A stretch of 64,000 bases of DNA from Siphonodentalium dalli (lineage: Eukaryota; Mollusca; Scaphopoda; Gadilida; Siphonodentaliidae): positions 96,975,343-97,039,342 of the forward strand of contig CP136065.1 of the NCBI GenBank assembly GCA_032622095.1, read 5' to 3'. Positions 8,042 to 64,000 of this stretch are shown in pieces. Under the pieces are notes generated by a model that worked only from the letters and a program-made list of their open reading frames with translations, had not been told where the DNA came from and did not search any database. The stretch's first letter is position 1. Each line of letters starts with the position of its first letter. The translations under genes and the position numbers were made by a program.

Positions 8042-8044
8042 ATC

Positions 8045-14000: not shown

Positions 14001-14645
14001 ACAGACTATCACATATAATATCACACAGACTATCACCCATACTATCACACATACTATCACACAAACTATCACACATACTATCACACAGACTACCACACAT
14101 ACTATCACACAGACTATCACACATACTATCACACAGACTACCACCCATACTATCACACAGACTATCACACATACTAGTACACATACTATCACACAGACTA
14201 TCACACATACTATCACACAGACTATCACACAGACTATCACATACTATCACACAGACTATCACACATAATATCACACAGACTATCACCCATACTATCACAC
14301 ATACTATCACCATACTATCACCCATACTATCACACATGCTATCACACATACTACCACACACACTACCACCCATAATATCACCCATACTATCACACATACT
14401 ATCACACATACTTTCACACAGACTACCACACAGACTATCACACATACTATCACCCAGACTACCACCCATACTATCACACATACTATCACCCATACTACCA
14501 CACACACTACCACCCATACTATCACCCATACTATCACACATACTATCACACATGCTATCACACATACTATCACACATACTATCACACATGCTATCACACA
14601 GACTATCACACATGCTATCACACAGAATCACACATGCTATCACAC
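8045..14645. repeat. 12-bp satellite array, right block, with ~2.7-kb higher-order repeat
   Basis: Continuation of the left block after the transposon. Marker variants recur at nearly fixed spacing. The ACTCGCACGG marker is at 9647 and 12355 (2,708 bp apart) and again at 13539; the 6-bp-deletion marker is at about 10333 and 13044 (2,711 bp); the sequence after the transposon at 8045 recurs at about 10741 (2,696 bp). From about 13950 the array becomes more degenerate, with GCATGCTATC and ACTACCACACAC variants and small register slips at 14240-14310 and 14626. It ends around 14645 in non-repetitive sequence. Long apparent reading frames across it are artefacts of the 12-bp period. Confidence 0.97.
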
Positions 14646-25869: not shown

Positions 25870-26178
25870 CTTAATAGTGGCCCAGAAAAATTTGACGAGC
25901 CGACGGTCTCAGACCAAATTGCAGATGAAGATGGATAACTCTAAAATCAAGAGGCTTTGTGTTGATAATAAGGCCAAACTTCATCGAACAGCATGTTGAT
26001 AAATATAAATTATATAATGTATCGGGAAATTTTATACTATACATGCAGTGGACAGTGGTTAGCATTATTTTTGGGCAATTAATCGATTCTGATAACTGAA
26101 GCAGCATTTCTAAAAAAAATGTTGTTGGAATCTGATTATATGGGGACCATCGAATCTGATTGAGCACCTTTAATAGTT
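25870..26178 (-). mobile_element. Truncated copy of the TTAAAGGTACTC MITE
   Basis: 25925-26175 aligns with 46665-46912 over its whole length with small gaps, sharing GATGAAGATGGATAACTC, ATTTTTGGGCAATTAAT and the end GATTGAGCACCTTTAA. The left terminal repeat present in the 46488 copy is missing here. The minus-strand open frame across it shares a stretch with the frame in the other copy only because both are the same repeat. Confidence 0.75.
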
Positions 26179-30589: not shown

Positions 30590-31440
30590 TTTCACTTTGG
30601 ATCCCCACCCAGGTGTACCTTGGTGTTATTCACCCAGGTGTTCCTTGGTGTTTCCTACCCATGTGTACCTTGGTGTTTCCCACCCAGTTTTACCTTGGCG
30701 TTTTCTTACCCAGGTGTACCTTGGTGTTTTCTTACCCAGGTGTACCTTGGTGTTTTCCTGCCCAGGTGTACCTTGGAGTTTCCTTACCTGGGTGTACCTT
30801 GGTGTTTTCTAACCAGGTGCATCTCAGTGGGAAATCCACCTGGGTAAGAAAACACCAAGGTACACCAGCGTAAGAAAACACCAAGGTACATCTGGGTTGG
30901 AAACATCAAGGTACACCTGGGTGGGGAACACCCAGGTAGGAAACATCAGGGTTCACCTGGGTGAATAACACCAAGGTACACCTGGGTGGGAAACACCCAG
31001 GTAGGAAACATCAGGGTACACCTGTGTGAATAACACCATGGTACACCTGGGTGGGGGAAACACCTGGGTGAATAACACCATGGTAAACCTGGGTGGGGGA
31101 AACACCCAGGTAGGAAACACCAGGGTACACCTGGGTTGGAAACACCCAGGTAGGGTACACCTGTGTGTGGTCACCTGGGTAAATACACCCAGGTTTATCC
31201 ATACCAGGGTTTGTATCCAGTTTCAGGTGGGTAAATCAAGGTAAATCCCAGGTTTCAGGGGGTCTTGATGGTTGGTGGATATCTTGGTAGATAGATTTAC
31301 CTGGGTTTCGGCCCAAAAAACCTGGGTGGATTTACCCAGTTACATTTTTATATGGGCAACTTTGGTCAGAATGTGAGTTTGGACACAAATTAGGTATCAG
31401 CTTGTTTGAAAAAAAAATAGTATAGCATACGCTCGTAGCT
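30590..31440 (-). repeat. CCAGGT-rich element, copy 2, with internal inverted minisatellite
   Basis: 30600-30818 is a tandem run of 29-30-bp units of the form CCCAGGTGTACCTTGGTGTT. From 30835 the same unit continues in the opposite orientation (AACACCAAGGTACACCTGGG), so the whole is a large imperfect foldback. The right end (31326-31432) is the reverse complement of the left end of the 16191 element. Numerous short proline-, tryptophan- and glycine-rich open frames here are by-products of the repeat. Confidence 0.8.
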
Positions 31441-39289: not shown

Positions 39290-39775
39290 ATTTCATCGAT
39301 GTCAATAGGGAATCGGGTGCCCAACTCATGTAAAAAATGGAGATTTGAAATAACACAACTATTCCCAATCATGGGATATAATAGTTCGCAATCCATTTAC
39401 GGCCACGCCTGACACGAATCTCAATTGACGTTAATATCCATAATATAGAATTAATACGAGAATCCACTCGACGAACATATTTCTGAAAATAGCAGGCATG
39501 CGAGATGATGACCTGTGTCATCGATGCGCAAATACTCAAGAACACATTTCGGACATTTTCTGGGACTGCCCACACACAAATCGGTTCATAACCGAACTTC
39601 AGTCTTGGTTGAAAATCAAGAAAGTGTCTATACAGATAACCAAAACATGTATGTATTTTGGCGTTAGTCAGTGTCAAGTGAATTATATCATTAACTACAT
39701 TCTGTTTATGCTAAGGCAATATCTCTATACTCTCAACAAACTCATTTCTTGCTGGATTGTAATTCAAATATGAAT
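39290..39775 (+). pseudogene. LINE fragment: C-terminal end of the reverse-transcriptase protein
   Basis: A plus-strand frame ending at 39773 contains RINTRIHSTNIFLKIAG (about 39450) and then CHRCANTQEHISDIFWDCPH followed by RFITELQSWLK. The spacing C-x2-C-x6-H-x5-C with FWDC and a tryptophan-leucine after it is the zinc-binding tail seen at the C-terminus of many non-LTR retrotransposon proteins. Upstream text (PFTATPDTNLN) also fits, but stops and at least one shift interrupt it. No reverse-transcriptase core was found. It is a 5'-truncated dead copy, as usual for LINEs. Confidence 0.65.
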
Positions 39776-42878: not shown

Positions 42879-43042
42879 TCATGCGTGGCATACTGTGTCT
42901 CGTTGGGCGTTCTGAGGCACCTCGTACATCCTGTCTTCGTCATCCACAGGAGAACAGGCAGCCACTGAACCCTCACATACGTTTTGTGGTCTCAACTGCA
43001 TCAGATCAGAGTAAACTTGATCATCTGGTGGGGCAGAAGCAG
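42879..43042 (-). CDS. Receptor exon 5 of those seen: cytoplasmic tail and stop
   Basis: Follows the acceptor TTATTTTATTTGTAG and enters in phase 1. It encodes about 54 residues starting after A-A-S-A-P-P-D-D-Q, with VYSDLMQL and DRMYEVPQ and ending DTVCHA. The YSDL (Y-x-x-L) and YEVP (Y-x-x-P) motifs are the kinds bound by SH2 domains when phosphorylated; that use here is inferred. An in-frame upstream ATG (43079) would give a false signal-peptide-like start, but those bases are the intron pyrimidine tract. Confidence 0.78.
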
Positions 43043-46000
43043 CTACAAATAAAATAAACAAGGATGGGGTGAATTTCATTGTCTACAGTTCAGTTTGTCC
43101 ACGCGAAGGAATATCGAAATGGGTTCCGTCCGTGAATACGTTCGTCCGTTCGTCCGTGCGTCAGTCCGTCGTAAGAAATTTGGAGCTCTATATCTGTCAT
43201 CGTTTAATGGGTTTGAATGAACTTTCATACACGTATGAACCATCATGGTGGAAGGAGCACCCACATGGGACGGGGTTTGTCCATTAGTTCATTGCACAGT
43301 TATGGACGTTGGAGCGAAAATACGTTTCTGCCAAAGCTGGATCTATGTCCCAATCATGGCTGCTAATGTCCGATTTATGTATAGCAGGTTATTTAGCTAG
43401 CTACCAGGCATGATACAACATCCACATCTAACATGTGTTGTTCATTAATTGCTTCTGTAGTTATTGTAACTAAATGATTGTACAGATCGTACTAGATGGT
43501 GTGGGACTATATTTATTTGAATCACAATGTTCATGAAAGTTAGTATTCCCAATTCTCTCATAATAAAAAACATACTCGTTGCAAACGAGCCGCACCGTTA
43601 TCGGACTGGCGTTTATTGGAAACATGAAAACTGCATACCAGTGGGCACATGTCACATTTACATGGAGTACAATTTTACAATCTACCTGGTCTGCGACGAC
43701 GGTCAGGAAAAACCTCCTTTTATTTAGGAGGAAACCTGTTTTCCGAATCCCAATCAAAGCCGCAGCTCAAATGTTCGGAAATTCATCTGTAAAAATAATA
43801 TCCTATGCTATATGAGTATAAATACATATTGTTATGACTTTACATGCAAAATAAATAGCCGTGCAACTTTCTTATATTGCATGTTATAAGCATAGTCTAC
43901 TCTTTTACACATATGATTCTGCATTTATTTTTTTAATAAACTATCTTCAATGTAATTATAAGTTTAAGATCTAAGTCCGGCGAAGGTTAAGACTAGAACG
44001 ATACTACATCGCTTATCGCTCATGTCTAATTGTTCACTACTAATTATGACCCGCACTGTGAATACAAACTTTTTTCGCTAATCAAGCAAACGCGGAAAAG
44101 TATATTATCATAGGTGGTATATTGAGATGTCCACTTATGAAAAAATGTTAGTAAATATGAATAACTTAAGTTAGTCAAACATTTTTCCCCAGTACGACTA
44201 ACATAGCTTGGATTAAAACGAAGGCAGAAATTAGTCATAATGACTAGTGTGATGTTAGTCATAACGACTAAGACATTGTTAGGAACACGACTAATTGGGT
44301 CATTAGACTGCAATTGTGTTAGGTAAAATGAGCAGGATTGAGTCATAATTACTATCATGTATTAGTCCCTGAATGGGAAGGTGGGAATGTAAATCGGTGG
44401 ATATATTGTGCAAACAATCCCAATACTGAACCAGATGATATATTACCCATAATCACAAACTTTATATCAATTATGTAAAACACAGATCCAATACTGGTCA
44501 ATTGAGATGTATACCGTAGATTGTGGCATAACTTATGTCTGATTGGTTCATTTTTGATGATGTGTTTATGAAATAAGAAACGTTTATCCAAATAGTGCAG
44601 CCCTTGGTGTGGGAGAGAAGTTCTTATATATATGTCATTATATCATTCCATTATATCCTCCCACCACATTCGTTCAATAATATATCTAATATATTTGCGA
44701 AGCAATGAAAATTGAACATTTAATAATGGATATTAAGCATCAATTAAGGCAGTGTTGCAGCTATAGTAATTCTTCATGTAACTTAGGCCAGAGTAAGTCA
44801 TAGTGACTCGCCGTACATACCTTCAGTATTCCTTCCTAAGTAATGGTGGCTCCTTTCACTGGAATGTCTGAAAATAGTAGAATCGCGAACACTAAACATC
44901 ATGTTAGTTAAACATATTTGTATTGCCAATAGAAAGACGATATGGACTAAAGCACAAGTACTGATTACTTAAATTTGCCCTGCTCCGACATGTATATATA
45001 ACACAAATTCATGACGCGGCAATAACTCATGAAGATTAATTAAATACGCAAATACAACAATAATGTGGTTGCAATTGCAGGTGGGGGAAGATGTATCTCT
45101 TCCCGGAAATACTTGCTTCGGCAACATCAATATTTTCTAATATGAATCGTTTTGACTACTATGTTATACCAATATGTAACAGAGGCGCAATCATTCGATG
45201 CACATACATTATCTACAACTAATGTCTTTAAAAGTCCAGGATATTAGAAAGTCTAGATAGTAACTTTTTCTGTCCGAGTTGAGATAAGAAAATTAGGAGA
45301 TAAAGAAGTATATGTTTGGGCAACACAAACTTCTTGGATTCTGTTTCAGAGTCAGAACAATCTCTAATATATAAACCTCTGAAAAGAAAACAGAATATTT
45401 ATAGTCTTTTTTATTGGCTTTTATGTTTTAGAGTAGGTTGTCCATATGATCAGTACATGTGAATTGATTGCTCAACCAACCCCCACTGGATTAAATACGA
45501 GATGCCGATTCAGACCAAAATGTTTGTATACATTCCTCCAAATGAGGAACTCACCACATGTACCTCATAACTTGAATTTTTTTGTTATTGCTTGGCAATC
45601 AGACACTTCTTCGATTCAGAATTCATATCATGTTGACGTAATATTGGTGATGATCCTTTATAGGGAATTTGTATATAACTTCAAGAGACATGGTTTAAAT
45701 ATATCTTAATGATAGTATATGACCATACATGGCAGAATATAGCACACACGCTGTCACATTCTCAATGGGTCGTGCTAAATATTTTCAATTCAGATTATAC
45801 TACCACTAATTGTATCACTCTCTTCCAACACAATGTATATATTCACTCATATTGCACTCTTTGTCTAAGATTCACAGAGCGTATACATGTATATGGAATG
45901 TACGCTCTTTTAGATAAACTAGAATGTACTCATTGGAGCTGGCTATAGTTGTGCCCATCACAAGTGTGTCGTCCTTGATCATCATTGTGGTGTCTTGCCA

Positions 46001-49000
46001 ACATGATGTTGAACCACGGGTACTGTGTTCTCAACATTATGTGCCAGTCATGGAAGGGTTCAAGACCGATAGCGAACGCATTTAAACAAATCGGTGTTAG
46101 CACATACATTCCTGCGTAGAATTGTATTTGCTATGGAACTCCGTTCCGGACATGGTTTATATGCGTGCTTTTAAAATGTTCTTAACTTAGGAGAAAGTTT
46201 GCCGATATATTGTTCAGTGCATGCCTTTATGAATAACACAGGTCAATTACCTGTGAAACTTCCAGAACTTTTATATGCGAGCTTTTGATTAGATTATCGG
46301 TTTTTTTCAAATTAGCTGAAACAGTCATGATTTCGGAAACTTTTGTGGAATAAGACGGCGCTTGAATCGGTAATTTGAACGAGAGGCCGATCACGATCGG
46401 CAGATGTTTAACCCATACCTTGGCGATAACGATTAACTATTTTTATAAATCCTTACACCATCCTTTTCAACAATTCACACCTTACTATTAAAGCTACTCG
46501 ATCCGATTAAGCACCCCTCAGTTACGTTTTATTTGGCTTCGGGGATAACAAATATTTTATTCAAATCGAGGAACCCATTCCTCAAAGCTCAGAGTAAGCA
46601 GATATCAATGTTTTAAATCTATTATCTTTAACCACCTGGAATATTTAGTGGCCGTATGAAAGTTGATGAAGATGGATAACTCTAAAATCAAGTGGGTTTT
46701 TTGTGTCAGATATATGACAAAGTAGCAAAATTTCATTGTACAAAATGTTGATAAATAACAGATTTTGGGCAATTTTATACTATAGTGGACTGTGGTCAGC
46801 ATTATTTTTGGGCAATTAATTGATTCTGATAACAGAAGCGGAATTTCAAAAAAACTGTTGTTGTTGGAATCTGATGATATGTGGACCATCAAATCGGATT
46901 GAGTACCTTTAAGTTCACAAGTGGCATAAGACTTATTGGGCACCTTCCATATGGATATGGCATTTGATTCCCACCTATTAAGTCAGTTTAAAATAGATAT
47001 ATAGTCTTATAGAGCTCAGTCCATAGTCAGGCATAAGAACCATACATAACAGTTAAAGATAAACTATTTTAAAATTTTCGTAAAATATGATTGATAATGA
47101 TTGGATATAACATACTTTAATGCATAATTATGAGATAACTAGAGGTCGCCAGGGATATGAGATTGAAGATATTAGATTTATTACATTGGATAGCATACTG
47201 TATGTCTATGTAATGGGTGGGTTAATTTTGTTAATATTCTAAAGCAATTAAACCAACTGACCCTCTATGTACAGGTTAGGGGTGTGTTATCATAAACTAT
47301 GACTTGAAATATAATTTAACCAATGACAAATATTTGAGTTATTAAATGAGATAGCAAGGGGTTGATCTTAATCACACTAAAGAACTGATCAAAATAGTCT
47401 ATAAATGCATGTATATGGATTTAGAAGCCCACACAATAAGTCAGTCTCAAGAATACAAGCAACATAATTATTATCCTGCACCCCAAATGCAATAGAGGGA
47501 ATTTCAAAATAAGACATTTCCTCTAATGTTTTTAGAAATCCTTACTAAACCTGGCTCAAAATGAAAGATATAATTTAATATCTGCCTATCAGATATCATG
47601 TGTCTATGGAATGGGTTAATATTAATCCCAAAATCCATGCAAGACCAGAGAGCTATGTTGGAGTTGATAAATCCTGAGAAGTCACTGTCCACACACTATG
47701 GAAATGCAATAAACAACAGATAGCTATTAAAGTGCAGCAGTGAGTATCAGATTTCATTACCAGGTATCAATAATAGAGATTATCTCTAGTCTCTCTTACT
47801 GATACCACCGTTGTAAGCTGCTACAGTTATATATTGTAAGCAAATCTCAAATATGTTCAATTCTTAGTTAAAAGGGGCCATAATTCTGGCATAAAAAACA
47901 GGATCTGACCCATATTCAAACGTGATCTGTATTTTGAGTTGATAAACTCGCATACCAAATTTAGTTCTTATCAGTTGAAAAATGGTTGATTTATCAAAAT
48001 ATGCAGAAATTCTTTATCAAAGGGCCATAACTCCTTTCAAAAATATCGGATCAAACCCATATTTAAACTCGAGCTGTATTTTGGTCCGAGAAACTTGCAT
48101 ACCAAATTTTATTCTGAACAGATAAATTTTTTTTGAGTTATGGTAGCATGCATGAATTCTAAGTCGAAAAAGGGCCATAACTCCTAAAAAAACCTGTTTG
48201 AGTTATCGCACCATGCGTAAAGTGTCTACAGACAGACAGCCAGACAGACAGACAGACCGACAGACAGACAGACGGACGGACGGACGGACTAACGACGAGT
48301 CGTCAATCCGGACAACGACACTATGTTTACCATACTATGGTATGGGTAAACATAAAAACAAAATACATTTTACTGTAAAGACTAAAATCCGCCAAGGTGG
48401 TGAACATCTTTGAGACCCGTCCGTTCCGATTTTCAAGTCGCAGATGTCTGGACATCGACACAGTAGCGTCTTGAGTTTGCGCTCCGAATGAGTAGTTTGG
48501 GCGTCTCGATATGCGTCGTCATGTTGTGAGGTTTTAACTTGTTTCCAGGAAGCAAACTTTCAAAATTGTTCTAATTTGACAGATCTTAAATAAAACCCGA
48601 TAAAAATGCAAATTAAGCATATTTGGATTTTGTGCAACAACTTCATAATAGCGCATGTGGATTCTTTATATTCGTACTTCCTGTAAGACGTCACCGAAAT
48701 GCGTAATGACAAATAAGTAGACAATGATCCGGTCAAACCGAAAACATTAGTTTCTTCCAGCATAGACCGCCGCAAGAAGTTATTAAATATTGAATAGTCT
48801 ACTCGTACTCTCAGTATTTGTTATGAGAGAACAAATGCATACGTATCACTAAAGTATGATTTGTAACTGGATGCACTACTAACCTGCGGCAGCGAAACAC
48901 TATGTACCCCAGCCCCAGACCGACGAGAAAGACGAGGAAGATAGCCGGAGCAAGCACCGCCACTAGTGGGTATCCTCTGTCTCTTGCTGAAAGTGAAATA

Positions 49001-52000
49001 TATAGAAGATCTACAACGAGTCCCCATTTTATAGCGGAATTCATAAAACGAGTCCAGTAAATTAGGTCTCCAAACATAATTTACTGGACGAGTTTTGTAA
49101 ATCCGCTATATACTGGGTACGAGTTGTATATAGGTTATATTTATTACATGATTCAAAACCTCGATACCACATAGTTAAACTAACACATGGGTCATGAAAC
49201 TAACATCGGCTTATATCAGGCTTGCGATGACGATTCACGTAACTATGCGTTATTTGTCCGCGTAAAGAAATAGTTCAAGATAAATAGAGACTCCCTGACG
49301 TGTTTAATGGCGTATATTTAATCATATAGCATTTCAAGCTTTTCATTCATTAGAGTATGTTGGGAAAATATTGGAAGCCATATATACACTCTAAACAGTG
49401 GAGATGCAATATTGTTCCCCGGAGAGGCAATATTTGCATTATATAACCACCCCTCCAAAAGGCTAACGTGCCCCCCCCCCCCCCCCCCCCATTAAAGGGT
49501 TAGCAGCCGAAGAACAATTTGCCCCTCAGCGGCTGTTAAGTACATGCCTGTCAAAGAACAATTTGTCACTCAACGGGGGTCAAGTACCTCCCTGTCGAAG
49601 AACACTTTGTCCCTCACGGGAGTCAAGTGCATCCCTGTTGAAGAACAATTTGTCACCCAGTGGGGGGATTCAAGTACCTCCTGTCGGAGAACAATTTGTC
49701 CATCAACGGGAGTCAAGTACATCCCTGGCGAAGAACAATTTGTCCCTCAACGGGAGTCAATTGCATCCCTGTCGAAGAACAATTTGTCACTCAGCGGGAG
49801 ATACACATTATCACCCAGGAGAGCAAATACGCCCACATGGGTGGTTATAATTTATTGGAAGCCATATATATATCTTGAGACGTAGCGTACGGAATATAAA
49901 CAGACGACAAACCGGAAGTTAAAGATCACCTAGCACTATTTCCTGTTATGCAATGACAGTTTCATATCACAATTTATAGAATGGGTTTATTGAATGGAAT
50001 ACGGGTAGGATCGTGTAGAAAAGATAGGTATAATATGAGCCTTCCAACATATTCATTCAGAAATGATTGTTGTAATGCGAGCCGATGTTATCAAATATAT
50101 GTGGAACATTCTGGCAACTAAATTATGCAAACTGGCTCGGGTATTTATTGCGTACGACGAATGAGGTATTCCAAAATGTTGTCTGCATCTTCAAATTATC
50201 GTCCACGTGTATCATGTTACCGGTGTATTCCGCAATGAACATTAAGTGACCAAGGAAACTATAATATCAAAGGACCTACATGTGATCTGCTTTCATAATT
50301 TTTTCCAGAAATGGCTGGCCCTCTGATATCCTGTCTGAAACAAAGCTCTGTTCTGGAGACCGTCGGTACTAGATACTTGTTTAGAAGTTCCAGAGCAACA
50401 CTGAGTTTGGGCTGCTGTGTTAATAGTTTTCATATATGGATGGCACTCTGATATCGTTTGGAAGATCCAGAGTGACATAGTACTCGTAGTCATGCGACAC
50501 AAAGATTACGCCTAATCAGAATGAGGTTCCCAGAGTGTGAATTTGGTGACGCTAGACCACCGTAACGTAACTAAATTCACCCTCTGGGACCTCAGTAACA
50601 GAGCGTTCTTTACCATGCGACATTGGCCACATTTGGACCACTACGGATAAGAAGTGTGAATAGGGTACTACGTCAGTATAATTTGTGATCTTCCCAGAAA
50701 TTGTCGTTTTTGCCATATTCATAGTTACGATTACGATTTCAGGTTTGCAACAAAACTCACAATGCTACCATATAGAAATACGTTCTAGATCGACGATCTG
50801 GTGCTCGTTGTGGGAGTTGACATTCCTTAGGATGTCCTTTATCTGTAATCGCCACGTGACCTTAATTTCTATCTCTTAGTTTACATCAAACTCTTCGTTC
50901 GTCGTCATTAAACACCATAATCTTGAGAACCACGTGATAGCGTTATTAAGTACAAAATAATTGAGACAAACATAATCATATCCCCTTACTACGAGTGGCT
51001 AGATTTTCTCATAAACGGACTCGAATTCTGCAATTTTGGACCGTTCGAAAAATTTACGACTACTATTAGCTATTCATACTTCTTATCAGTAGTTGTTCAT
51101 TGTTCATGTATATTATTTATTTAAAACACAATCTACACTGGTCGTCGTGAAGCACAGTATACAGGTAGAAACTCCCGTAGATCCGTGACCGGTTTCGAAA
51201 TAGGGTCCCTCGAGTTTTGTGCGCTCACAATATATCGAAATAATTGTATGTACAAAGTTTACGAACAGTGACTATCGTTAAGAACGTATACATCCAAACT
51301 TTAATACTTACGAATACGTTATTGTGCGATTGAGGTGGTTTAATCTTAACCTGCATGCAGTTGTGAGATACATCTCCAATTTTCAATAACAGTGATGCGA
51401 ATTCGTATTAGTGAACTCACATTTCGAGACAGAGCAGGTTTCACCTTCCCATCCATCCATACACCCTTTTAAGCAAGTTGCTGTTCCTTGGTCGCATCCT
51501 CCAGGAGAACAGTTATGGTTGCATGTGGATGAGCACGTTGAATCATAACTTCCAGAGAAACACCTCGAACAATTGCTTCGAGAATCGCAAATGTCACAAC
51601 CTGCCAGGCACTGATGACAACGCGCCTGCTTGTTAAAGTATCCACGCTGACAAACCTCACACTCGCCATTCTCGTTGCATCTCCCACAGTGGTCCGGACA
51701 TCGATTACGACAGCGTGGGCCATACCACCCGTCCACACATTCACCTAAACAGAGTCCTGTACCATCACAAGCATCATCAACACAGCGCTGCTTGTCGCAC
51801 GAATGACTGCAATTGGAGCCCACGTCGTAGGTTCCATGTGAACATGACATACAGCTTCCAGTATGTCGCGCACATGTGGCACAGTTACCAGGACATCTAC
51901 CCCGACAATCAGCAAGAAACCATTCCGGCAAACAATCTGTGCATTCTCCTGATTTACGATCACACGTGTTACAGTTAGCCATGCATGGGTCACGGCACTC

Positions 52001-55000
52001 CGTCCCTGCCCACTGAGGCTCACATCCGGCTTTGTCACATAGGCCCAAGGAAGGACAGTCATGCGGGTTCACGCAATTCCGATCAACGCACACGTCCTGG
52101 CAATTTGTGCTCAAATTATAAAATCCGCCATGACAACTTTGACAGCTACCTGTGTTCCGATCACAACTGCTGCATCGTTCGGTACACGGCTCTGTACAGT
52201 CTGTACCAAAATAACCCAGTTCACACCCGTCCTGTGAGCACTGACCAGTCCACGTAGGACAGTAGTCATTCCGTTGACAATGTCGATCACTGCATTGATT
52301 TATGCACCCGCTGGAAACATCGCCATACAATCCTGCATTGCACACTGCAGACAAACAATGTTTCGACGATCATATTATACATAAATAACAATAGTATACC
52401 TAAATGTAAAGACAAAATTCTTGGCATTAACTCAATGTATTGCTGGTTCAAAATCTTAGCTATGTATTATATTTGTGAACTAAGTGTTATATCTGCGTCT
52501 TTTCCCATGATGGAGTTATTTAGTAACTGTCAAATCTGAGACATCGCGAAGCCTCACAACTGGAACAAAATATTCTGGGACAAGATTCACGATAATTTGT
52601 TTACTTTTAAATAGCCTAATCTGCTGATAAACAGCATGGACACATTTTCAGAAATCGACTACTTATCTCTCAAGGAGAGTAATTATGCTAAGATTTATAG
52701 AGAAGCACTGGCCTAACTCGTCAGTGATAGATAATCGACTAGTGAAAAGTGTCACACATGTGCAGGGCCTAATATAATCTGATATGTGAACCTGCAATTG
52801 AACTGTTATTATATTTCGGACCACGATCACGAGCGAAGATTAAAACATGCTGTCAATAGACACAATAGTGTGGGAGAACGTTGAAATGACTTCAAACATT
52901 TAATTTGTATAATGAAACCACGTCCTTTGTGGAAAACGTGTTTTTTCAATGCATGAAGATACTCTCTCTATACAATGTAATTAAATACACAAGTGTTAAC
53001 AGGGTGTGGCTATACAGGTACTAACTGCGGATTGTGTAATGCGCTACATAGTATGACCGTTTGTTGAGCTTAGTATCTGGCCATTTTAATGTTTGTCACG
53101 GGGGTGTATTTTTTGCATGAAGGATTGAATGTATGCCGGGTGGGTTGATGGTCTAAACTGACAACATATTTTAGACAACCACTCGTAATGTTTCACTGGA
53201 GACTTTAATACTCCAGATATAGGCTATGTAATAGTTATACAGTTTTAACAGGAAACAACCAAATTATCAAAACTGGGACCTCGTATAGGCCTTAGTTGCG
53301 ATGAATTTCAGCTATGGTATGTTGGATATGAAACAGAAAGTTGAAAACTTTCTTTCCGACTCTCTTCGAAAAGAACTCGGCACTGGTATATTTTGAAAAA
53401 AACTTGTGATATCTGGATCCATATGTTTTCATAAAAATAATATGCAACAATAGACTGGTAACTTCAACAATCTTGTAAATAAAACAGTTCAGAAAATATT
53501 TAGCTGAAATATATTAGATCTCCATTTATGAACTTATGAAACAAGATTGAGACTAGAAACTGCAAAAGTCTTGTAAAGACAAAATACTTGCAAACTGTAA
53601 AACTATGTAAAATACATTAGATCGTTCTTGATTAAAACTTAATATGATATTGTAAATCAACGAATGATGCATCAAAGAGACTGGAAACTTTAACAGTCTT
53701 GTAAACATAAAAAGATTCGAGAAATGTACAACTTAAATATACGTTTCCTGATGTAACTAGGACCAATAAGCGAAGCTAGTTTTGTGCGTGGAAACTGTCT
53801 TAAACATTACTGTGGCTATCAATGGTTAGAAAATAATGGTCATCAGTGCATCGAGCCAATCAGTGAATTGTTTACATATCTATTATATCCACTCACATGA
53901 CTAAATGTGTTACTCCCACAACCCTTACACCATCCAAGTCCGGTATAGTGACTGCTTGTCATTTAGAGTAATAGTTGCCCAAGTAGACTAACAAAAGTGG
54001 TATGTCATAACCCTAGATAATGAGCTGGTTGACATTAATCATAAAATAGTTAGAAATTATGGAATGGCGTATATTCAACACTATGATCTAGGCTTGCAGA
54101 TATCAGTAATTGACAAAATAACATTTCCCATTGCAGCCTGGTAAAATCTCGTGTGTGTCTGGTTTCAAAATATGTCAACTCCAGTTGAATTGATATATCT
54201 CGAAACTTCGAAAGTCAATATTCAGTTTACTGTCCTGATATGTTATCCGCTTAAATAGCCAAAATACTTGTTCGGTCCATTAAAATACATGCAGGGGGAA
54301 ATTTCTCACTGGATATGTATAAACACTTTTTATAAATTGGATACATGTACCTGTAATACTGCTACAATTTTTCCATTTATAAGTGTGGAATTGGACCACC
54401 CATGTTGACCTGGAATCTTTAATGCATACATGTGGTAGACAAATACCTATCAACCAGTATATTCAAAATTTCAATTTTCATTTTCAATTAACTAGTTAAA
54501 CTGCCCCATTTGTACTAAAGGAAATCATTTGCGAATGGCATGAACGATATAAGTATGTTCTCATGTGTGTAGGCCAAAATTCTAAACATTTGGAGGGGAG
54601 TCAACAATTTGAAGTAAACATATTGTTTTGTCGGGTTTGGGGGTGTGGGATGTCCCCGAATGCCAGATGCAAAAAAAAATAGCATACCTTCCTGCTGTTC
54701 CTTCCTGCAATTGGTTTCACCCTCTCTGTTCGTCATTGAATATGACGATAAATAAAGTTTTAACTGATAATGGTATCAAATTTCCTACAACTGTTTTATG
54801 TATTGTGAAAAAAGGGTGAGTGCATTTTTATATATGTTTGTCAATACATGTGGTATATCGACGAACCGGGAATAATATAATGTTTGAGTGAGTGAATAAA
54901 GGTCCATATGCTGGGTCAGTCAACCACTGCATTGCCAAAGAATATACAATGACAACTTTCAGTCCTTACTTTTTAGTTCAAAATGTCAGTTATTGAAACA

Positions 55001-58000
55001 CCTAGTTGTAACACGTATATTATTAAATGTTGTTAACTCTGTCTATACTAAACATTCATTGTTGAGTAGTAATCCGTAGGAAATGCTCAGATAATAAGAT
55101 CAACAAGGTCGTTTGTTGGTCTTATTATCTGATCATTTCCCTCAATAAATAGGACCCATTTCTTAGTTGTGTTATATGCCGGCTGCTGATATACATGTAC
55201 ATACCTTCGACTCAATAATAGACCATTTCGATGTAGACTTTTTAAATTGGTGTGAGAATCAATTTAGTATAGAATGGGTTAACTTGGATCTTCTTTCTCT
55301 AGGACGAAAATCGTGAGATATACGGTATTCCGACGAGGATTTCCATGATATTGAACATCTATAGCCTGTCGCGAGTCATGATGGTCGGTGATTTATACCA
55401 CAATTGTATGTGTGTCCATTGTGAGTAACACATATTTGTAAATTTCAGCTTTACATCCTACTTGTATAAATTTACATTTTGAGTGCAAATATTCAAACGT
55501 CATGTCATGGATTAAACGTTTAACATATATTAGAACTACATGTACATCGCAGATACAGTGTACATCGCCAAAATAGTTCTTTTGTTACATTAATTTAAAA
55601 TTGGAATATGTTATATCAATTAAGTATGAGGAATAGTGCCTGCATTTCAATCAAAAGTACCTGCTACTGTTATATTATCTAGGAAAAATATGAGTGATAA
55701 TAGTTAGTGACTGATGGCTTAGAAAAAAACTGATGCCACGAATTATACGTATGCGTCACTACGTGTGACGCACATTCCTCAGTGAAGATACACATTATAA
55801 GAAAACATCGGAGTAGCTGAGTTCACGGAATAAATCAAATTAATAATTATGACATATATAAAAATACCCATAGGTCCGAATCGGCATCTCTGGTTTAGAC
55901 TAGGTTTTATTCTAGACCTGGTTTTACGCAAGTTTAAAATATAGGTTTTAGTAGTAGTAAAACTTGGCTTGGAATTCGATTTCAATTAAAACTAGGTTTA
56001 CTGGCGATTAGCTATATCTAATTTATCCGCAACATACATGTACGTCTCGTCTCGAAAACATACCGTTAAATATACTTTGAAAAAACACCAAAGTAAAACC
56101 ACCCTACCCCAGGTTTTACTAAAACCTAGTTTGGTGGGTTTTATTATTCGGTCGAGTTTTTTCGCCTGGTATTGATGTTGTTTCTATATGGGAGCGTTTC
56201 TTTTAAATTGGATGAGGCGTTTATGCGCAGGGCGGGTGTTGGTACTTATGAGATATCTTCGAGCAAATATGCGTTGTTGATGCTTTCTTGCTATATAGCT
56301 TGTTTGCGATTCGCTCGTTCGGAGGTCGCTTTCGCGACAGATAGTATGGAGGAATCGGACTGATCCAGTTGACACGCTCGACCCGAACATGACTTTTGGA
56401 ACTTATTCCCTATAACTTAAAAATGTCTCTTTCGGTCAATTTGACGGTTTGGGTTGGTAGTCCGCCCAAATACCAATTAGAAACACCCCGGGAGTGTGGA
56501 CCATTTTCCAGAACGGCAAGGATTTCGGCCTATTTGATGACATGGGTGGGTGGCCCGCCACAAGTACCCAATAAAAACACCCCACCCCTCACCCCGGGGG
56601 TTGAAAATGGGGTACAGTCATTTGTCCTGTATTGAACCAGCTTGCATTAATCTGGTGCAATATTTTTCAAATGCATGATTCCAATGAAGTGTTCGCTAAC
56701 ATCCTTCTGTAAATAAAATTTGAGAAACACATGTATATTGTTTCAATATAATCCTGTTCTTGTAACAGAGACCCATGACTCCAATGGATATTAAATATTA
56801 AGACCAAATTTCCAAAGTATTAAAACTATTACCTAACCTTATGTTACCTTATGTTACCTTATGCATTGGTACACTAAAGCGATGTCGGTATTAGATTGCA
56901 CCCCAGTAGTAAGGGCTGACACAGTGGCCACTTCCCGGGCTCGTGGTCACTCTGCATGGCCCTGGACAAGAGTGACCACGAGCCCGAGAGGCGGCCAGAG
57001 TTCCATCAGAGGAGTGTGACCCAGAGTGACCACGAGGCCGGGAGTTGGCCAGTGTGCCAGCCGAGGAGGGTGGTCCAGAGTGACCACGAGCACGGGGTGG
57101 CTCAGAGTGTCCACCGAGGCGGGTGGCCCATCGCGTGAGTGTGTATCCCCTCGCCCTTCTATCGTGACTTTCATGCCAGCTTAAGTGTAGTCTACAACCT
57201 CCGAATGGGTATGATACTAGTGCTAACACATATCCAACATATGGGATATTGTTGTTTTATGGCATACCGGCCTACTGGGAAGTAGTGTTCGTCACAATTG
57301 AGAAATTTTGGTGGTTCGATACCGGTCAAATAGGCCACCTTTACAAACACAGGTTTTCTAGTTGAAAAAGTCTGGACAATTTTCGAAGTTAAAGCTCTAT
57401 GACATGACAATACATATTTGGAACTCCCTTTTTGTGATCGTACACATGGATCTTTGTGAAGAACGGCAAACTTTTTACGCTATTTTTTTTACCTCGAAAT
57501 TGGGAAACAAAAATGGCGCGAATCGTAATCTCGAAATAAAAAAGCTAGACAGTATTATCTTTTATTGTCAGTGCCTATAGAATTTTGACAAACATAGAAT
57601 ACAAAACAAATATTTTTTCAACTTTCCTTATACATGTATTGTGTCTGTATTTAATATATCATTATTGTTTGAACGGGATTTGCGTTACCGGACAAAATCA
57701 TTTACCGGACAAACGACTGTATATATGGACCATATTAAAGAACTGTAAGGATTTTTGGCCAATTTGACGGCATGGTGGGTGGCCCGGCCCAAATGCCCCC
57801 GGGGTGAGGGGTGGGGTGTTTATATGGGCTATTTGAGGACCCATGACGTCAAATTGGCCCAAATCTTTACCGTTCTCGAAAATGGTCCATACCCCATATC
57901 CACCCACTCGGGCGAGGATGACGGTGTTTCTAGGGGGATTTGGGGCGGGCCACCCACTCCTGTCGTAAAATTAGCCCTAAATCCTTGTCGTTCTAGAAAA

Positions 58001-60155
58001 TGGTCCATACCAGATTCTCCCCGTCGGGTTGGTACCTCCGGGGTGAGGGTGAGTGGTGTTTCTAGGGGGTATTTGGGGCGGCCGTCCACCAATGCCATTC
58101 AAATTGACCGAAAGAGATATTTTTTTGCGAATAAGGAATAGGGGATCAGTTCCAAAAATCATGTTCGTCCATGATATTAGATAATAACGAACCAAAGCCG
58201 GACGCCTTTGGTCGTATATAGACTATATCTGATTATGTGACGTCACCAATTATTATCTAATACGACGCTGCTGTTTTGAATTTGCGCGAGAACTTTTGTC
58301 GCACAGTAGATCGGTGCGCTTAAAGCATTAATGTCGTAATGTCATAATGTGGTATTGCAAATGACACTATAGCAACTACAGACTACACACATCGAGGCGA
58401 GTTAAAAGTGATCGAAATTTGTGATGTGAAATATAATAAGATTGACATCACAAATTTACCGATCTACTATGCGAAGGTGGGCCTTAAATGTACAACAATT
58501 GGTTCTGTACTGTGCGAAACGAAATAACATATATTTATATAATTGTGTTAGAATAAGGCTATATAGTACATACATGCATGTGATAATCCATAAATATCAT
58601 ACTATTTTCTGGAATCGAAGGGAAACACATAATTATGAACAAAGCAGAAGATACATTCATGCAGGTTCAGGCGAAAACAGTCAATTGGGGAAAGTTACAC
58701 GATGACGTTGTTCGTCGATTTTCGTTGAAATCGACACGGTGACATCTTATGAATGAAATGAACAGCTATGAAATGGACAGACTTCTCCATACAGTAACTC
58801 AGCAGCAGCGCTCATCCAGCGTCAACAAATTTATTGCTTAAATTCAGTAAACATGTTCCCGTTCCCCTCTCGACAAGGTATAACTATTTTCACTTTGCAG
58901 CCATTTATAGTCTAGCTGTCAATAAAGACTACCCGGAAGTACGATTGGCCTAATTTAATCTCGAAATTACGATTGGGGTCTATTCTCTCGACGAACCATT
59001 GTGTACGGGTGTAACTACTGACAAACACCCCAGAAAACAGCTTTATGTGAATCTTATTATGGTGTGAATACCAGGGAATCTATAAACTACTTTCGATAAA
59101 AAAAAAACAATTAAATGCCAAAGCTACCCTCGTGTGAGTGATTTAGCTTTGGTTCGTTATTGCGCTAGCATTAGGTCATATTAATTAACCGCTATATATA
59201 ACAGTCCGTAAATTCGTCGTGATTTCACAAAGCGCACGGGTTTTTTCGTCTGATTGGGATATTAGATAGTGACAACAGGGCGCGTGACCCAACAATCCAT
59301 TGATAAGTAGCCATCACAGACAGACAGACAGACAGACAGACAACGCATCCTATCCTGAACAATTGTGGACCACATGTAACGCAATCGACTAAATCCATGC
59401 ATGTCGTCCCCACGGTCGAGTAAAACTTGGTAGTTTAAACAAGGTATAAACCGGAGATGCCGATTCGGACCACAGTGACCCAGAGTGCATAGTTTTCACT
59501 ACTCGTGCATGGTATTATGGTTTTGACCACAATTATGCTCGTGGCGAAAATTTGGTGCTTTCCGTTACTATGGATGTATATAAATATAGAACACCGAATG
59601 CGAGTACCATCTGTCCTGATTCGGAATCAGTGTTAGGTATATATTTGCAAGTGCACGTGTAAGTAATACAACTGCACCCATGGGTGTTTTCCGGAAATAT
59701 TACTGGGGGATTCCACGAGAAAGAACTGTAAAGCATACTATCGACATACAATGTATTATGTAGGATATGTTGAACATTAAATTCAGATAAAAGCAAATGC
59801 ATGACGTCCATAAAGGCGATTGACTCGATGTTTACTCTTTAGCAAGCCATGTATAATTAGTTAATATAATTAACATATCGTATTGTACCGTGATTGAGAT
59901 GTGAGTAAGTCATTTACCAAGCAACATGAAAAGGATACTCACCATATACCTCTAATTCTCTGAAGTTGAGTATATAGTATCTTGTCTGTTTGAGGACTAC
60001 AAATCTTCCCGTCATAGACGTCATGCATTTGATGTTGTAAACTAATTGTGAAGTATCACTTGTGTCCTCATAACACATCTCAGTATGTGTCCATGTACTT
60101 GGTTGTCTGCTATTTGATACATATATTTGAAAGCCGATAATTCTGTCAGTTTCCC
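42879..60155 (-). CDS. FTP/EGF-repeat transmembrane receptor, MEGF10-like (partial: 5' end missing)
   Basis: Five exons join with matching codon phases: 60155-59943, 52344-51421, 48986-48884, 44867-44821, 43042-42879, totalling 1,451 nt or 483 codons plus stop. All introns are GT/AG with good pyrimidine tracts (introns of 7,598, 2,434, 4,016 and 1,778 bp). Order of parts: C-terminal half of a fucolectin-tachylectin-pentraxin (FTP) domain, seven 8-cysteine EGF-like units, one membrane helix, and a cytoplasmic tail with YSDL and YEVP. Known: vertebrate MEGF10/11 and fly Draper use EGF-repeat ectodomains and tyrosine tails for engulfment; molluscs carry many FTP/EGF relatives. Inference: a cell-surface recognition or scavenger-type receptor. 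The signal peptide and first half of the FTP domain were not found in 60.2-64.0 kb. Additional in-phase exons within introns cannot be excluded. Confidence 0.8.
43043..44820 (-). other. Intron 4 of the receptor gene
   Basis: AT-rich. 44190-44370 has repeated TTAGTCATAATGACTA-like words in both orientations. No other exon recognised. Confidence 0.6.
44821..44867 (-). CDS. Receptor 47-nt microexon: juxtamembrane tail
   Basis: Bounded by acceptor CTACTATTTTCAG and donor GTATGT. It is the only short segment I found in the 5.8-kb gap that converts the phase-2 end of the membrane exon into the phase-1 start of the tail exon. It encodes R(split)-HSSERSHHYLGRNTE plus a split codon, a basic and polar stretch that suits the inner face of the membrane. 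Confidence 0.7.
46488..46912. mobile_element. 425-bp MITE with TTAAAGGTACTC ends
   Basis: Left end TTAAAGCTACTCGATCCGAT and right end ATCGGATTGAGTACCTTTAA form inverted repeats of about 22 bp with few differences. TTAA at each border is compatible with a TTAA target. A truncated relative is at 25870-26178. The minus-strand 112-codon frame that spans it is not a gene. Confidence 0.75.
47870..48290 (-). repeat. Dispersed GGCCATAACTCC repeat with (CAGA)n(CGGA)n tail
   Basis: Contains three GGGCCATAA(C/T)TC words, CATACCAAATTT words at 47951 and 48099, and ends with a long (CAGA)n run turning into (CGGA)n at 48230-48287. Read on the minus strand it resembles the internal units of 28517-29100. 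Confidence 0.65.
48884..48986 (-). CDS. Receptor exon 3 of those seen: membrane helix
   Basis: Acceptor TTTCACTTTCAG, donor GTTAGT, 103 nt, phase 1 to phase 2. It encodes S(split)-RDRGYPLVAVLAPAI, FLVFLVGLGLGYIVF, then RCRR. About 25 hydrophobic residues followed by a basic stop-transfer cluster indicate a type I single-pass helix. It ends the ectodomain immediately after the last EGF-like unit, with only a five-residue stalk. Confidence 0.82.
49369..49870. repeat. 44-bp minisatellite element between 18-bp direct repeats
   Basis: Seven tandem units of about 44 bp (GAAGAACAATTTGTCCCTCA, then a CGGGAGTCAAGTACATCCCT-like part) occupy 49505-49800. A run of exactly 20 C bases precedes them at 49471-49490. 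TATAACCACCC (49442) and GGGTGGTTATAA (49840) are inverted near the edges. The whole is flanked by perfect direct repeats TATTGGAAGCCATATATA at 49369-49386 and 49853-49870, which look like a long target duplication. It lies in intron 2 of the receptor gene. Open frames across it are period artefacts. Confidence 0.75.
50522..50594. repeat. Foldback hairpin
   Basis: Arms TGAGGTTCCCAGAGTGTGAA (50522) and TTCACCCTCTGGGACCTCA (ending 50594) pair with few mismatches around a loop of about 22 bases. Confidence 0.65.
51421..52344 (-). CDS. Receptor exon 2 of those seen: seven EGF-like units
   Basis: Acceptor GTTTGTCTGCAG, donor GTGAGT, 924 nt (308 codons), phase 1 at both ends. By my count it contains 56 cysteines, which is seven groups of eight, as in laminin-type or MEGF-type EGF-like repeats. 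Recognisable unit endings include GCELGYFGTDC, GCEPQWAGTEC, ECVDGWYGPRC and GCMDGWEGETC, alternating with units such as CSSCDRNTGSCQSC and CNTCDRKSGECTDC. One large exon encoding all units is unusual compared with one EGF per exon, but common in MEGF-like genes of invertebrates as far as I know. The plus-strand and shifted frames here are shadows. Confidence 0.9.
53450..53745 (+). repeat. Diverged tandem units (GACT.GAAACT..AA.AGTCTTGTAAA)
   Basis: Related starts at about 53452, 53549 and 53680, each continuing with GTAAA-rich text and CGAGAAATGTA- or CAGAAAATATT-like text. A fourth relative is at 41083. No coding content. Confidence 0.5.
55079..55140. repeat. Hairpin with AGATAATAAGATCAACAA arm
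   Basis: Left arm 55079-55106 and right arm 55113-55140 are inverted copies with about three differences, around a 6-base loop. Confidence 0.7.
55870..56155. repeat. AAACCTAGTTTTA-rich repeat
   Basis: Words such as ACTAGGTTTTA, CCTGGTTTTA, AAACTAGGTTTA and AAAACCTAGTTT alternate in both orientations. The start, GGTCCGAATCGGCATCTC, reappears inverted at about 59452-59471 and, less well, at 45498-45516. Confidence 0.45.
56385..56640 (+). repeat. GC-rich ~150-bp-unit repeat, copy 1
   Basis: Begins GAACATGACTTTTGGAAC and contains GGTCAATTTGACGG, GGACCATTTTC, CAAGGATTT and GGGTGGGTGGCCCGCC. It is the inverted relative of 57720-58172. The open frames here are by-products. Confidence 0.7.
56970..57110. 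repeat. 52-bp GC-rich tandem repeat
   Basis: GTGACCACGAG recurs at about 56975, 57027 and 57079, with GGGCTCGTGGTCACT inverted at 56938. CpG-rich relative to the surroundings. Open frames on both strands are repeat artefacts. Confidence 0.65.
57720..58172 (-). repeat. GC-rich ~150-bp-unit repeat, copy 2 (inverted)
   Basis: Read on the minus strand it begins GAACATGATTTTTGGAACT at 58172 and runs through about three units carrying GGACCATTTTC, GAACG(G/A)CAAGGATTT and GGGTGGCCCG, ending near 57720. It matches copy 1 from the first base, so 58172 and 56385 are probably true element ends. Confidence 0.7.
58183..59161. mobile_element. Possible 979-bp MITE with 16-bp inverted ends
   Basis: AATAACGAACCAAAGC at 58183-58198 and its exact reverse complement at 59146-59161. 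No clear target duplication and no coding content; the inner sequence is not a hairpin. Confidence 0.5.
59943..60155 (-). CDS. Receptor exon 1 of those seen: C-terminal half of FTP (F5/8-type) domain
   Basis: Acceptor TTGTTTTTCAG, donor GTGAGT, 213 nt, phase 1 at both ends. It encodes GETDRIIGFQIYVSNSR, then WTHTEMCYED, a second cysteine in NIKCM, GRFVVLKQTR and NFRELEVY. The F-x-I-x-V-(G/S)-N strand, the paired cysteines, G-R-(F/Y)-V and the closing E-L-E-V-Y are the second half of a fucolectin-type galactose-binding fold. The first half, with its A-V-D-G and W-W-x-V-D-L motifs, must be on an upstream exon. The last base G joins TG of the next exon to make valine. Confidence 0.82.
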
Positions 60156-62880
60156 CTGAAAAACAATCCATTAATCGTTTAACGGCGTATACACTGATTA
60201 TGATTGGAGGGACAACGTACTGAAACATTTCGTGAATCAAGGATTATACCTCTTACAGAAGCCAGACGGCAGTTTCGGTCCTATTATAAATTTAAAACGC
60301 ATATGCGAATTATTGCTTGTGCACTATAATATCCATTGTCCGGATGGCCATGCTGTCTGCAAAATATTTATTCGAATAATTTAATGTTTTATCTATTTTC
60401 TGTGCACCATTCAGTGACCAAGAAAAGTCCCTTTCTATAAATGTATACATTGTGCCAGGTACTAGTAATTGCACACATATGTCAGTAAACTTTAATAGCT
60501 GACTCCTTTATAAAGATTAATAAATTAAATTACTATTGTCTTAAGGGGAGACGCACATATTGCATAAATCCAGCCAAAAATGGAAAGAGATTTTCGACAA
60601 AGAATATCTGGGTCTACCTAGCAAAAAATCTTGAATTTCACATATCATCTTCATTGTGTGTAGAATCTGAGGAATTATTAAGAGACAACAAAAACAATGG
60701 ATTTTAATTCATTTGAGAGGTTAAAATTTTTAAAGATATTATTTAATGTTTTGTCCCTTTCGGTACCAAGAACTGCTAGGATAATTAATAATTTCAGACA
60801 AAACTACAATAACCAAATAGCTTATTGTCCGAGGTCTATGAGAGGAGACTTCATTTATATCATAATGTTGATTTTTTATTGCATAATACAGCAACATACC
60901 CCCATATATTATAATGAAGAATAAAGCAGTCACAAATATTCCACCCCAATAAAAACAAATGTTGATATTCAGTGTGGTTCACTCAAGCAGGTACCAATGA
61001 ACAATATGGTGGTCAGCTTTAACTTGATTATGAACCTATGACCCGCAACTCATCTCAGCCCAATTGTTCATTGATCAACAGGTATGGCGTGAAAATCATC
61101 AAATATAGAAAATTGGTTATGGGTAGTTTCCTTTCTTAATGAACATAATCATTAAATTTCACAAATAAAGGATAATTAGTCTCCTCTCACGATCCTGAGA
61201 TATGATATCATGGCTATATGAGCTGCACTTTTGAAAATAATATATTTAACAGAAGTTCTTGATACCTGAAAGCAGTGACATTTTAGATACCTTTCATGCC
61301 ATAAAAGTCAAGTGAATGAGGTTATAATATAATTGTGTCACAATAATCGCTTGTACCAAATTTCACAAAGATATTGCTTGAGAAAATCCGTTTTGAAATA
61401 ACAGGAGATTTTGATAAAACGTACAGCTGACCCTTAATGTTACATTAGCACCTGCATGGATCAATTTGTAGGTGCATGCGATTCATTTAACATAATTCAC
61501 TGGCATTGCCTAAGTTAATGTCTACATGGGCAGCCACCTCAAAGAGTGTTGTTAAAGACAAATTATGGACTTTTTCGGGTGCGTGAAATTGATAAGTTAG
61601 TACTCAGCTGGTATGCCAACCTGGGAAATGTAGCATTCTGCTAGCATTCTGCTAACATCGCCGAAAATTTCTAAGAAAGGGACCATACCACTCCATAGAA
61701 AAAATCGTCTGAACTACGCCCAATTTTAAATATTTACATCTCGATTCGGTACGCAAGTATCGGCGATAATCTAACACAACTGATTTTGCCATCGATAGTC
61801 ATGGCATCTAATTAATATATGAGAATGACGGTGTGTATCGTCAATTTGGATTAATATTCGTATACAAATAACTACTCTGAGCAAGATTATTCTCAATTTC
61901 TATTTGATCACCCTACGGAGTGTTTCACATCACTTTAACTCTGGCTAATTGGATTACCATGGGATATTTGACTACCTTTTTTTAGAACGGTGAATTCAAC
62001 ATTCCACTTTTAAGACTGCGAGCAATGCGTGGGGTATCGTTAGTATATAACAAACAAAACAAAAATCGGGGGGGGGGGTGATACTCTATGTATTTAGTTG
62101 TTTAACCTACTAATTTCTAATTGTTGGCTACCAGTAATTTCACATTATGAGTATTAAAATCAGCTGATAAGTATATACTTCATCTATGTAGTCAGACTGT
62201 ATGCCCTGGAATAAACTAACTCTAAAAATAAAGAATGCAGATAGACGAAATCGGTTTTGGACCCTATTTTGGCATATATCAGTTAGAATTTAGTTCAGGA
62301 CTTGTTTTTGAGAAAGCGAGCATAATATTTTATAACAAAATTCAACACATAGCATTATGTTAAGTAAGAAATGCGTATGTTAAAGTGGTATTTTAATTTT
62401 GACTGTTATAACGATATTTTAATGCTCACTTTCGAAACCATGCACAAACTCCTTTAACTTTTACCGGAAATCTTTTTAGGGGTGCATGGTGAATAGTAAG
62501 GTGTTGTTACACTTTTGAGTTATCGAAACGCCCCCAGGGTCCAATGGCTATACAGGAAACATTTTGTATTTAGACAATATTTTGACATAATTGACTACAG
62601 GCTCATGTTTAACGGGCCAGGTTCTGTACTGGAGGCCCTTGTAACAGGTTTGGGTTACTTGTGTTGCTGAAATTGGGGATATTCTGGTCATAAATTGAAT
62701 AAATTTTGTGTTATTTGAGTTAATAAGAGGTTGCGATATAGCATCATATTGTTTTGGCCATGTAAATATATTCTGAAAAATCTTCCAAGGAGATATTAGC
62801 CCAACACATGTGCCCTAGAATGGTACAATGAACCTAAGTCATGAATATGTGTTGGATTTAAATAACCTTGTATTTGTTTT
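60156..62880. other. No exon recognised upstream of the FTP half-domain
   Basis: AT-rich, intron-like sequence. TATTTTGCAG at about 60360-60369 on the minus strand precedes text reading HPDNGYYSAQAI, faintly like an FTP start, but the frame closes without a donor, so I do not call it. A G-run lies at 62071-62079. Confidence 0.4.
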
Positions 62881-62884
62881 ATAT

Positions 62885-63822
62885 GTTACTAGCTGGTGGG
62901 CCCGACTTCGTCCGGGCTGTTTCCCCTCTGCTTTCATCCGGACAAAAGTACCCATACCCAAAAGTACCCGTATTTTACCCGATTTGACATTGAATTGACA
63001 ATTGCAAAGGTCAAGGTCAGGTCGGGGTCATGAAATGACCCGTCCAAATCACTCCCCGGACAAAATTACTCCTAGGTATGAAATTCGTCGAAGTCCGTCC
63101 GTTTTACTCGATCTGACCTTAAATTGATCCTTTTTGAAGGTCAATGTCATTCGGGGTCATGATCTGACCCGTCCAAATCACTCCCCGGACAAAGGTACCC
63201 TAGGTATAAAATTCGTCGAAATCCCGTCCGTTTTACTCGATTTGACCTTGACTTGACAATTTTGAAGGTCAAGGTCAGGTCGGGGTCACGATTTGACCCG
63301 TCCAAAACACTCCCTGCACAAAAGTACCAGACAAAAGTACCCGTCGAAATCCGTCCGGTTTTACCCGATTTGACCTTGAATTGACCATTTTGAAGGCCAC
63401 GGTCAGGTTGTGGTCACGAATTGACCCATCCAAAACACTCCTCGGACAAAAGTAAACCTATGTGTCAAATTTCGTCGAAATCCCGTCAAAATTCGCGATT
63501 TGACCTTGGATTGACAATTTTGAAGGTCAAGGTCAGGTGGGGGTAACGATTTGACCCGTCCAAAATACTCCCCAGACAAAAGTACCTCTATGTATCAAAG
63601 TTCGTCGAAATCCGTCCGTTTTACCCGATTTGACCTTGAATTGACCTTTTTGAGGGTCAAGGTCAGGTCGGATTCACGATTTGACCCGTCCAAAACACCG
63701 CCTGGGCAAAAGTAACCCTATGTAGCAAGATTGGGCTAAATGCGCCCTGCAGTTTTCCCGGCCATAGGTAACAGACAAACAACAAACAAACAGACAGAAC
63801 TCCCAAAATATATAGTACACTA
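62885..63822 (+). mobile_element. SINE/retroelement-like repeat with ~130-bp internal units
   Basis: Head ACTAGCTGGTGGGCCCGACT, then five to six units of about 128-130 bp containing GACCTTGAATTGAC, GAAGGTCAAGGTCAGGT, GACCCGTCCAAAACACTCC and GACAAAAGTACC, then a tail with ACAAACAACAAACAAACAGACAGA and AATATATAGTAC. Repeats with an ACTAGCTG-x-x-CCCG-x-CTTCGTCCG head and such a tail are widespread in protostome genomes; I do not assign a named family. Confidence 0.6.
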
Positions 63823-64000
63823 GCCGATGAGCCCGACGTTGTCCGGGCTATTTAAAAACCAAATTTCAAGTCGATAGCTCCACCCGTTTCCGAGATCTGG
63901 TCTGCGCATGCACGGAGCTGGCGTCGCACGGGTTCGGCGACCCGATAAAATTCGAAGCTGGCGTCGCACGGGCTCGGCGACCCGATAAAATTCGTATCCG
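63823..64000 (+). mobile_element. Start of a second element with the same head
   Basis: ACTAGCCGATGAGCCCGACG and TTGTCCGGGCTATTTAAAAA follow directly after the tail of the previous element. From 63918 a 40-bp unit (GAGCTGGCGTCGCACGGG... GACCCGATAAAATTCG) is repeated twice. Cut by the window edge. Confidence 0.55.

Follow-up and report, generated by a model that had tools for sequence, protein, structure and literature searches.

The minus strand of the 64,000-nt stretch of DNA analyzed here (the window) probably carries the 3' part of one gene, which would encode a type I receptor with a lectin-like head, a stalk of nine cysteine-rich units, a single membrane span, and, if a candidate microexon has been chosen correctly, a cytoplasmic tail of 73 residues counted from RCRR; we propose that this predicted receptor acts in uptake. 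Four coding exons with AG/GT borders lie in order on this strand, exons having been chosen for such borders. The FTP exon (60155-59943; 213 nt, phase 1-1, donor ATATG/gtgagt) may encode the C-terminal half of an F-type lectin/discoidin-like domain. It is followed by a cysteine-rich repeat exon (52344-51421; 924 nt, phase 1-1), in which a partial unit precedes nine six-cysteine units, by a membrane exon (48986-48884; 103 nt, phase 1-2), in which the hydrophobic span LVAVLAPAIFLVFLVGLGLGYIVF precedes RCRR, and by the last coding exon (43042-42879; 164 nt), which encodes the cytoplasmic tail with DDQVYSDL and DRMYEVP and ends in a TGA stop. The candidate juxtamembrane microexon (44867-44821; 47 nt, phase 2-1), which encodes RHSSERSHHYLGRNTEA when the junction codons are included, lies between the membrane and tail exons on the same strand. 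The FTP, repeat, and membrane exons join into a single open frame of 413 residues, and the frame of the tail exon is open as far as TGA; with the candidate microexon, the reading from the FTP half to the stop comprises 482 residues.

Splice sites were scored with matrices that, like the motif patterns used in this study, were untrained. By these matrices, the donors of the FTP, repeat, and membrane exons fall within the top 0.06%, 0.87%, and 0.33%, respectively, of the GT sites of the strand, and the acceptors of the FTP, repeat, membrane, and tail exons fall within the top 2.6%, 5.8%, 1.6%, and 0.7%, respectively, of its AG sites. The predicted introns, when the candidate microexon is included, are 7598, 2434, 4016, and 1778 bases long from 5' to 3'. 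Compatible phases and splice sites, all on one strand, argue for one jointly spliced gene, and phase 1-1 exons are usual in shuffled extracellular modules; against the one-gene reading count the length of the first intron, which separates the FTP exon from the repeat exon, and the 1-in-3 chance of a phase match alone. The stop-to-stop frame that holds the repeat exon extends over 328 codons and is the longest in positions 20001-64000, where 100 first-order Markov resamples reached a maximum of 244 codons. Given the length of this frame, the regularity of its cysteines, the membrane span, and the phased and ordered exons, it is not credible that the receptor body arose by coincidence; where the microexon and the connection to the FTP exon are concerned, chance is a serious possibility. 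On the 3' side, ATTAAA occurs 59 and 235 bases past the first base of the stop codon, a signal that does not discriminate in A+T-rich DNA.

The repeat exon encodes 56 cysteines in 308 residues. A profile made from the units of this exon recognizes nine full six-cysteine units, instead of the seven EGF units counted in an earlier, sequence-only reading of this DNA, as well as a weak partial unit that opens the exon and requires an upstream partner exon. Among 2840 ORFs, the profile reported only the repeat-exon ORF, a result that, given the origin of the profile, speaks to uniqueness within the window and not to homology. Cysteine gaps recur with a period of six, and the units, when grouped by eye, follow the order B A B A A B A A B, with gaps of 3,3,2,5-6,2,8-10 in A units (one of which starts with 2) and of 3,3-4,4-5,5-6,3-4,8 in B units; for all nine units, the best-scoring partner is of the same type. 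Growth of the stalk through duplication of a B-A-A block was considered and dropped, as pairwise scores for A2-A4 (40) and A3-A5 (49) compared with a score of 90 for A1-A3. The description of these units as MEGF-like EGF repeats was not borne out; the exon contains 11 C-x2-C and no C-x-C, the PROSITE patterns EGF_1 and EGF_2 found no match in it, a Pfam search with the joined protein, repeats included, returned no family at E values up to 10 (the HMMER bias filter may hide cysteine-rich matches), and a PDB search with the repeat exon at E values up to 1 gave no EGF match. An AlphaFold2 model of the repeats, built without an alignment, was poor (mean pLDDT 42.9). "EGF repeats" would seem to be a loose label for these units.

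The membrane exon encodes, as the same reading had proposed, a single hydrophobic span (best 19-residue Kyte-Doolittle mean, 2.77) followed by the basic RCRR, giving a frame like that of a single-pass receptor; a Pfam search with this exon gave only chance-level matches. The predicted protein has the traits of a type I single-pass receptor, i.e., one span, a basic stop-transfer segment, and a cytoplasmic tail, the last of which is linked through the candidate microexon. Because the membrane exon leaves two bases and the tail frame needs one, a direct join is out of frame, and an additional exon is thus required between the two. A search with thresholds set by us yielded six phase-compatible microexon candidates, the best of which is 44867-44821; since, of 46 overlapping control stretches put through the same search, 9 produced a candidate at least as good, this microexon is not distinguished from chance and represents a guess. 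Of the five exons proposed to encode one protein, the FTP, repeat, and membrane exons share one open frame, and the step from membrane to tail would pass through this microexon.

With regard to the tail, DDQVYSDL is a YxxL motif with preceding acidic residues, hemITAM-like under a loose pattern, and MYEVP is a YxxP motif; a pattern search found one YxxL and one YxxP in the tail and no NPxY, ITAM, ITIM, YxN, or YxxM. YSDL and YEVP agree with the previously suggested tyrosine tail, but the tail differs from the MEGF/Draper type by having no NPxY, ITAM, or ITIM. In the mechanism that we favor, DDQVYSDL would serve as a hemITAM-like SH2 docking site for a Syk/Shark-type kinase, and MYEVP, as a YxxP motif, would be a docking site for Crk/Nck-type SH2 proteins.

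For the head, the trimmed FTP exon (70 residues) matched PF22633 (NedA-like galactose-binding, F5_F8_type_C_2) with an E value of 0.0039 and 18.2 bits, below the cut-off of 27.8, over positions 46-89 of the 91 in the profile, which correspond to the C-terminal half. Neither the 109-residue ORF around the FTP exon (searched at E values up to 1) nor the joined protein of 413 residues, for which no Pfam family appeared, gave this match. A second profile was made from three F-type-lectin halves of solved structures (one of 1k12 and two of 3cqo); with this profile, the FTP exon ranked first among the 2840 six-frame ORFs (2295 scored), at only 9.3 bits and an E value of 0.17. When the exon was ranked together with 2000 shuffles (1838 sequences scored overall), it came second at 9.9 bits, behind one shuffle at 15.9. 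In the alignment to the three-sequence profile, the basic residue that ends the fucose motif is matched in the FTP exon (DRIIGF), as are two cysteines of 1k12, and the cysteine of LCEVEV is replaced by arginine. The fucose motif of F-type lectins is described as HX24RXDX4(R/K) and the cation motif as h2DGx (PMC5712786). Only the final basic residue of the former falls within the FTP exon; the remaining residues of the two motifs sit in the first half of the domain. Searched against the PDB with phmmer at E values up to 10, the FTP exon gave chance matches and no lectin, and an AlphaFold2 model of the FTP half, built without an alignment, was poor (mean pLDDT 61.9); in Foldseek, this model matched mostly fibronectin-type-III-like structures, with E values of at least 0.22 among the 50 matches listed, and we do not take these as evidence. 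A second FTP-like match, at 22137-22030 on the minus strand (E 0.063), was rejected as chance after inspection.

On the minus strand of 60156-64000, a search with a few motifs did not find the first FTP half, and neither did an exon search at fixed splice thresholds, which left one unrelated candidate; the cation motif h2DGx, expected in the upstream exon, had no match there. As no upstream exon with the first FTP half was seen in these positions, the start of the gene is not at the edge of the finding; the N-terminal end of the protein, where a signal peptide or an EMI domain would be expected, lies outside the window. Because the PF22633 match is below the cut-off and dependent on the query, the PDB matches are at chance level, and the structure model is too poor, we regard the lectin label, i.e., an F-type lectin/discoidin-like half domain, as likely and not as established. 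Profile searches of the kind suggested in the sequence-only reading, for FTP and EGF families, returned a weak FTP-type match and no EGF family; the FTP half-domain that it had named is favored by the PF22633 match of the trimmed exon and by the first rank with the lectin profile, but not by the longer queries. A mussel transcriptome study reported 42 F5/8 type C domains and considered the data insufficient to identify bona fide F-type lectins (PMC5549309), and this caution applies equally to the FTP exon.

The window also contains several repeats. Positions 4-14646 hold approximately 14.6 kb of a 12-base satellite, CATACTATCACA, in about 1220 copies with 83% matches; the GC skew, taken in 2-kb steps, is mostly near -0.75 and weaker (-0.29) at 6001-8000. 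Together with the spliced coding exons of an extracellular receptor, long satellites of this sort point to an animal as the source of the DNA. A tandem array with a 45-base unit and about 60 copies occupies 16738-19474, with a longer period of 134 across most of it; short tandem repeats at 30607-31154 cluster around ACACCTGGGT and ACCCAGGTGT, i.e., in both orientations; and an array with periods of 130 and 258 lies at 62973-63728, near the right edge of the window and 5' of the FTP exon. An ORF at 39444-39770, perhaps a LINE remnant, matches zf-RVT weakly (E 0.0026), its 18.8 bits falling short of the 27.5-bit cut-off. Minus-strand ORFs at 46605-46982 and 25871-26176 share a stretch near LLSESINCPKIMLTTVH, which suggests a dispersed repeat. 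An Rfam search gave no matches at the gathering score.

If the FTP-like half exon came from a separate gene or were a remnant, the receptor would start at the repeats, with its own signal exon within the 7.6-kb gap; this arrangement, which the 7598-base intron, the sub-threshold FTP assignment that is lost with the longer ORF, and the failure to find the first FTP half in the window would all fit, nevertheless appears unlikely to us, as the donor of the FTP exon is among the highest-ranked of the strand, the phase of this exon fits the acceptor of the repeat exon, and the repeat exon, which opens with a partial unit, requires a partner upstream. We give little credence, and less than to a separate FTP gene, to the idea of a decayed or unexpressed gene copy, with exons left over from an expanded family. 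The four exon frames contain neither a stop nor a frameshift, and AG or GT occurs at each of the seven splice borders used, although exons were picked for such borders; that the microexon is uncertain and that tandem repeats surround the gene would be compatible with decay, as would the large number of genes annotated as this class in an oyster (PMC13070813).

A further alternative concerns the nature of the stalk and is partly compatible with the single receptor gene that we prefer. The units may be of the furin-like or growth-factor-receptor cysteine-rich kind and not EGF, in which case the protein would be an adhesive or matrix-binding receptor and not an engulfment receptor of MEGF type; we consider this possible, if somewhat doubtful. 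It draws on the C-x2-C pairs and missing C-x-C of the repeat exon and on a furin-like spacing pattern that fits five of the nine units, a pattern written after the units had been seen. Four of the nine units, those of B type, have C-x3/4-C, followed in three of them by G-Y or G-W, which, as read by eye, is closer to EGF; moreover, the type of stalk does not fix function.

The MEGF/Draper/SREC family is marked by C-x-C EGF or laminin-EGF repeats and an N-terminal EMI domain, and MEGF, Draper, and CED-1 proteins by a tail with NPxY and an ITAM or paired YxxL. The predicted receptor has in common with MEGF10/11, Draper, and CED-1 a cysteine-rich repeat stalk, a membrane span, and a tyrosine-bearing tail, but differs in having no C-x-C, NPxY, or ITAM and in a head that we read as FTP-like rather than EMI. 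Oysters probably also have proteins that combine EGF repeats with a head of F5/8C or FTP type. Compared to the F-type lectins 1k12 and FBP32 (3cqo), the C-terminal half aligns and the last basic residue of HX24RXDX4[RK] and two 1k12 cysteines are shared, whereas the LCEVEV cysteine is replaced, the score is weak, and the exon is read here as part of a receptor. A Nematostella protein with an F-type lectin domain (FTLD), compared here by its domain description, combines FTLD and EGF-like domains, as in our reading, but also has CCP and other domains, and the description consulted mentions neither a membrane span nor a tail (PMC5712786). The same review describes FTLD occurrence and domain organization as substantially expanded in molluscs (PMC5712786); Aplysia is reported to have 5 F-type lectins and 2 MEGF10 orthologues (PMC9334734), and given these small counts, expansion would therefore not be general in molluscs. 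In eastern oyster haemocytes, lists for scavenger receptor activity include multiple-EGF-like proteins, 29 of them in one comparison, and draper-like transcripts, 27 of them in a second comparison (PMC13070813). These genes resemble the gene described here by annotation only, as a scavenger/engulfment class with many copies and haemocyte expression, and the available parts of that report do not mention an F-type lectin head, unlike the head predicted here (PMC13070813). That oyster haemocytes express many genes with such annotations makes the receptor class plausible but ordinary.

Among the literature matches listed, from a search that left subscription journals mostly uncovered, none described an FTP-EGF transmembrane receptor in molluscs. 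In contig collections of viruses and prokaryotes, which have no bearing on rarity among animals, the repeat exon had no pattern match in viral contigs and six stretches in genome contigs, none of them confirmed, and the FTP exon had three stretches in viral contigs, none of them confirmed.

If the single receptor gene is read correctly, the first half of the head would be encoded upstream, beyond the window, and the stalk would consist of the nine cysteine-rich EGF/furin-like units. The receptor may target microbes, dying cells, or food particles, binding their glycans or phospholipids through its head and possibly also its stalk. Clustering of the receptor would then allow a Src-family kinase to phosphorylate DDQVYSDL and MYEVP; phosphorylated DDQVYSDL would recruit a Syk/Shark-type kinase and phosphorylated MYEVP a Crk/Nck-type SH2 protein, and tyrosine signalling may lead to actin-based uptake. 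This lectin-to-phagocytosis account of a receptor predicted from its exons is a reasonable hypothesis and no more.

The gene probably represents one member of an expanded group of invertebrate scavenger/engulfment-type receptors, which we presume to be molluscan, with a resemblance to molluscan, probably bivalve, receptors. A bolder view would place it in a distinct invertebrate class, with an F-type lectin head, a stalk of alternating C-x2-C and C-x3/4-C units, and a tail with hemITAM-like and YxxP motifs, that couples glycan binding to Syk-/Crk-type uptake without the NPxY and ITAM of Draper and MEGF10; we consider this quite improbable. The locus seems to be a true receptor gene that belongs to a kind with known members and is unusual in the spacing of its repeats and in its tail; the receptor class is probably common already in molluscan genome annotation. 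The main value of this gene would thus be as an example with such spacing and such a tail. If its exons are spliced as read here, it would offer a specific invertebrate candidate for uptake triggered by glycans, and the two tyrosine motifs of its short tail can be tested separately.
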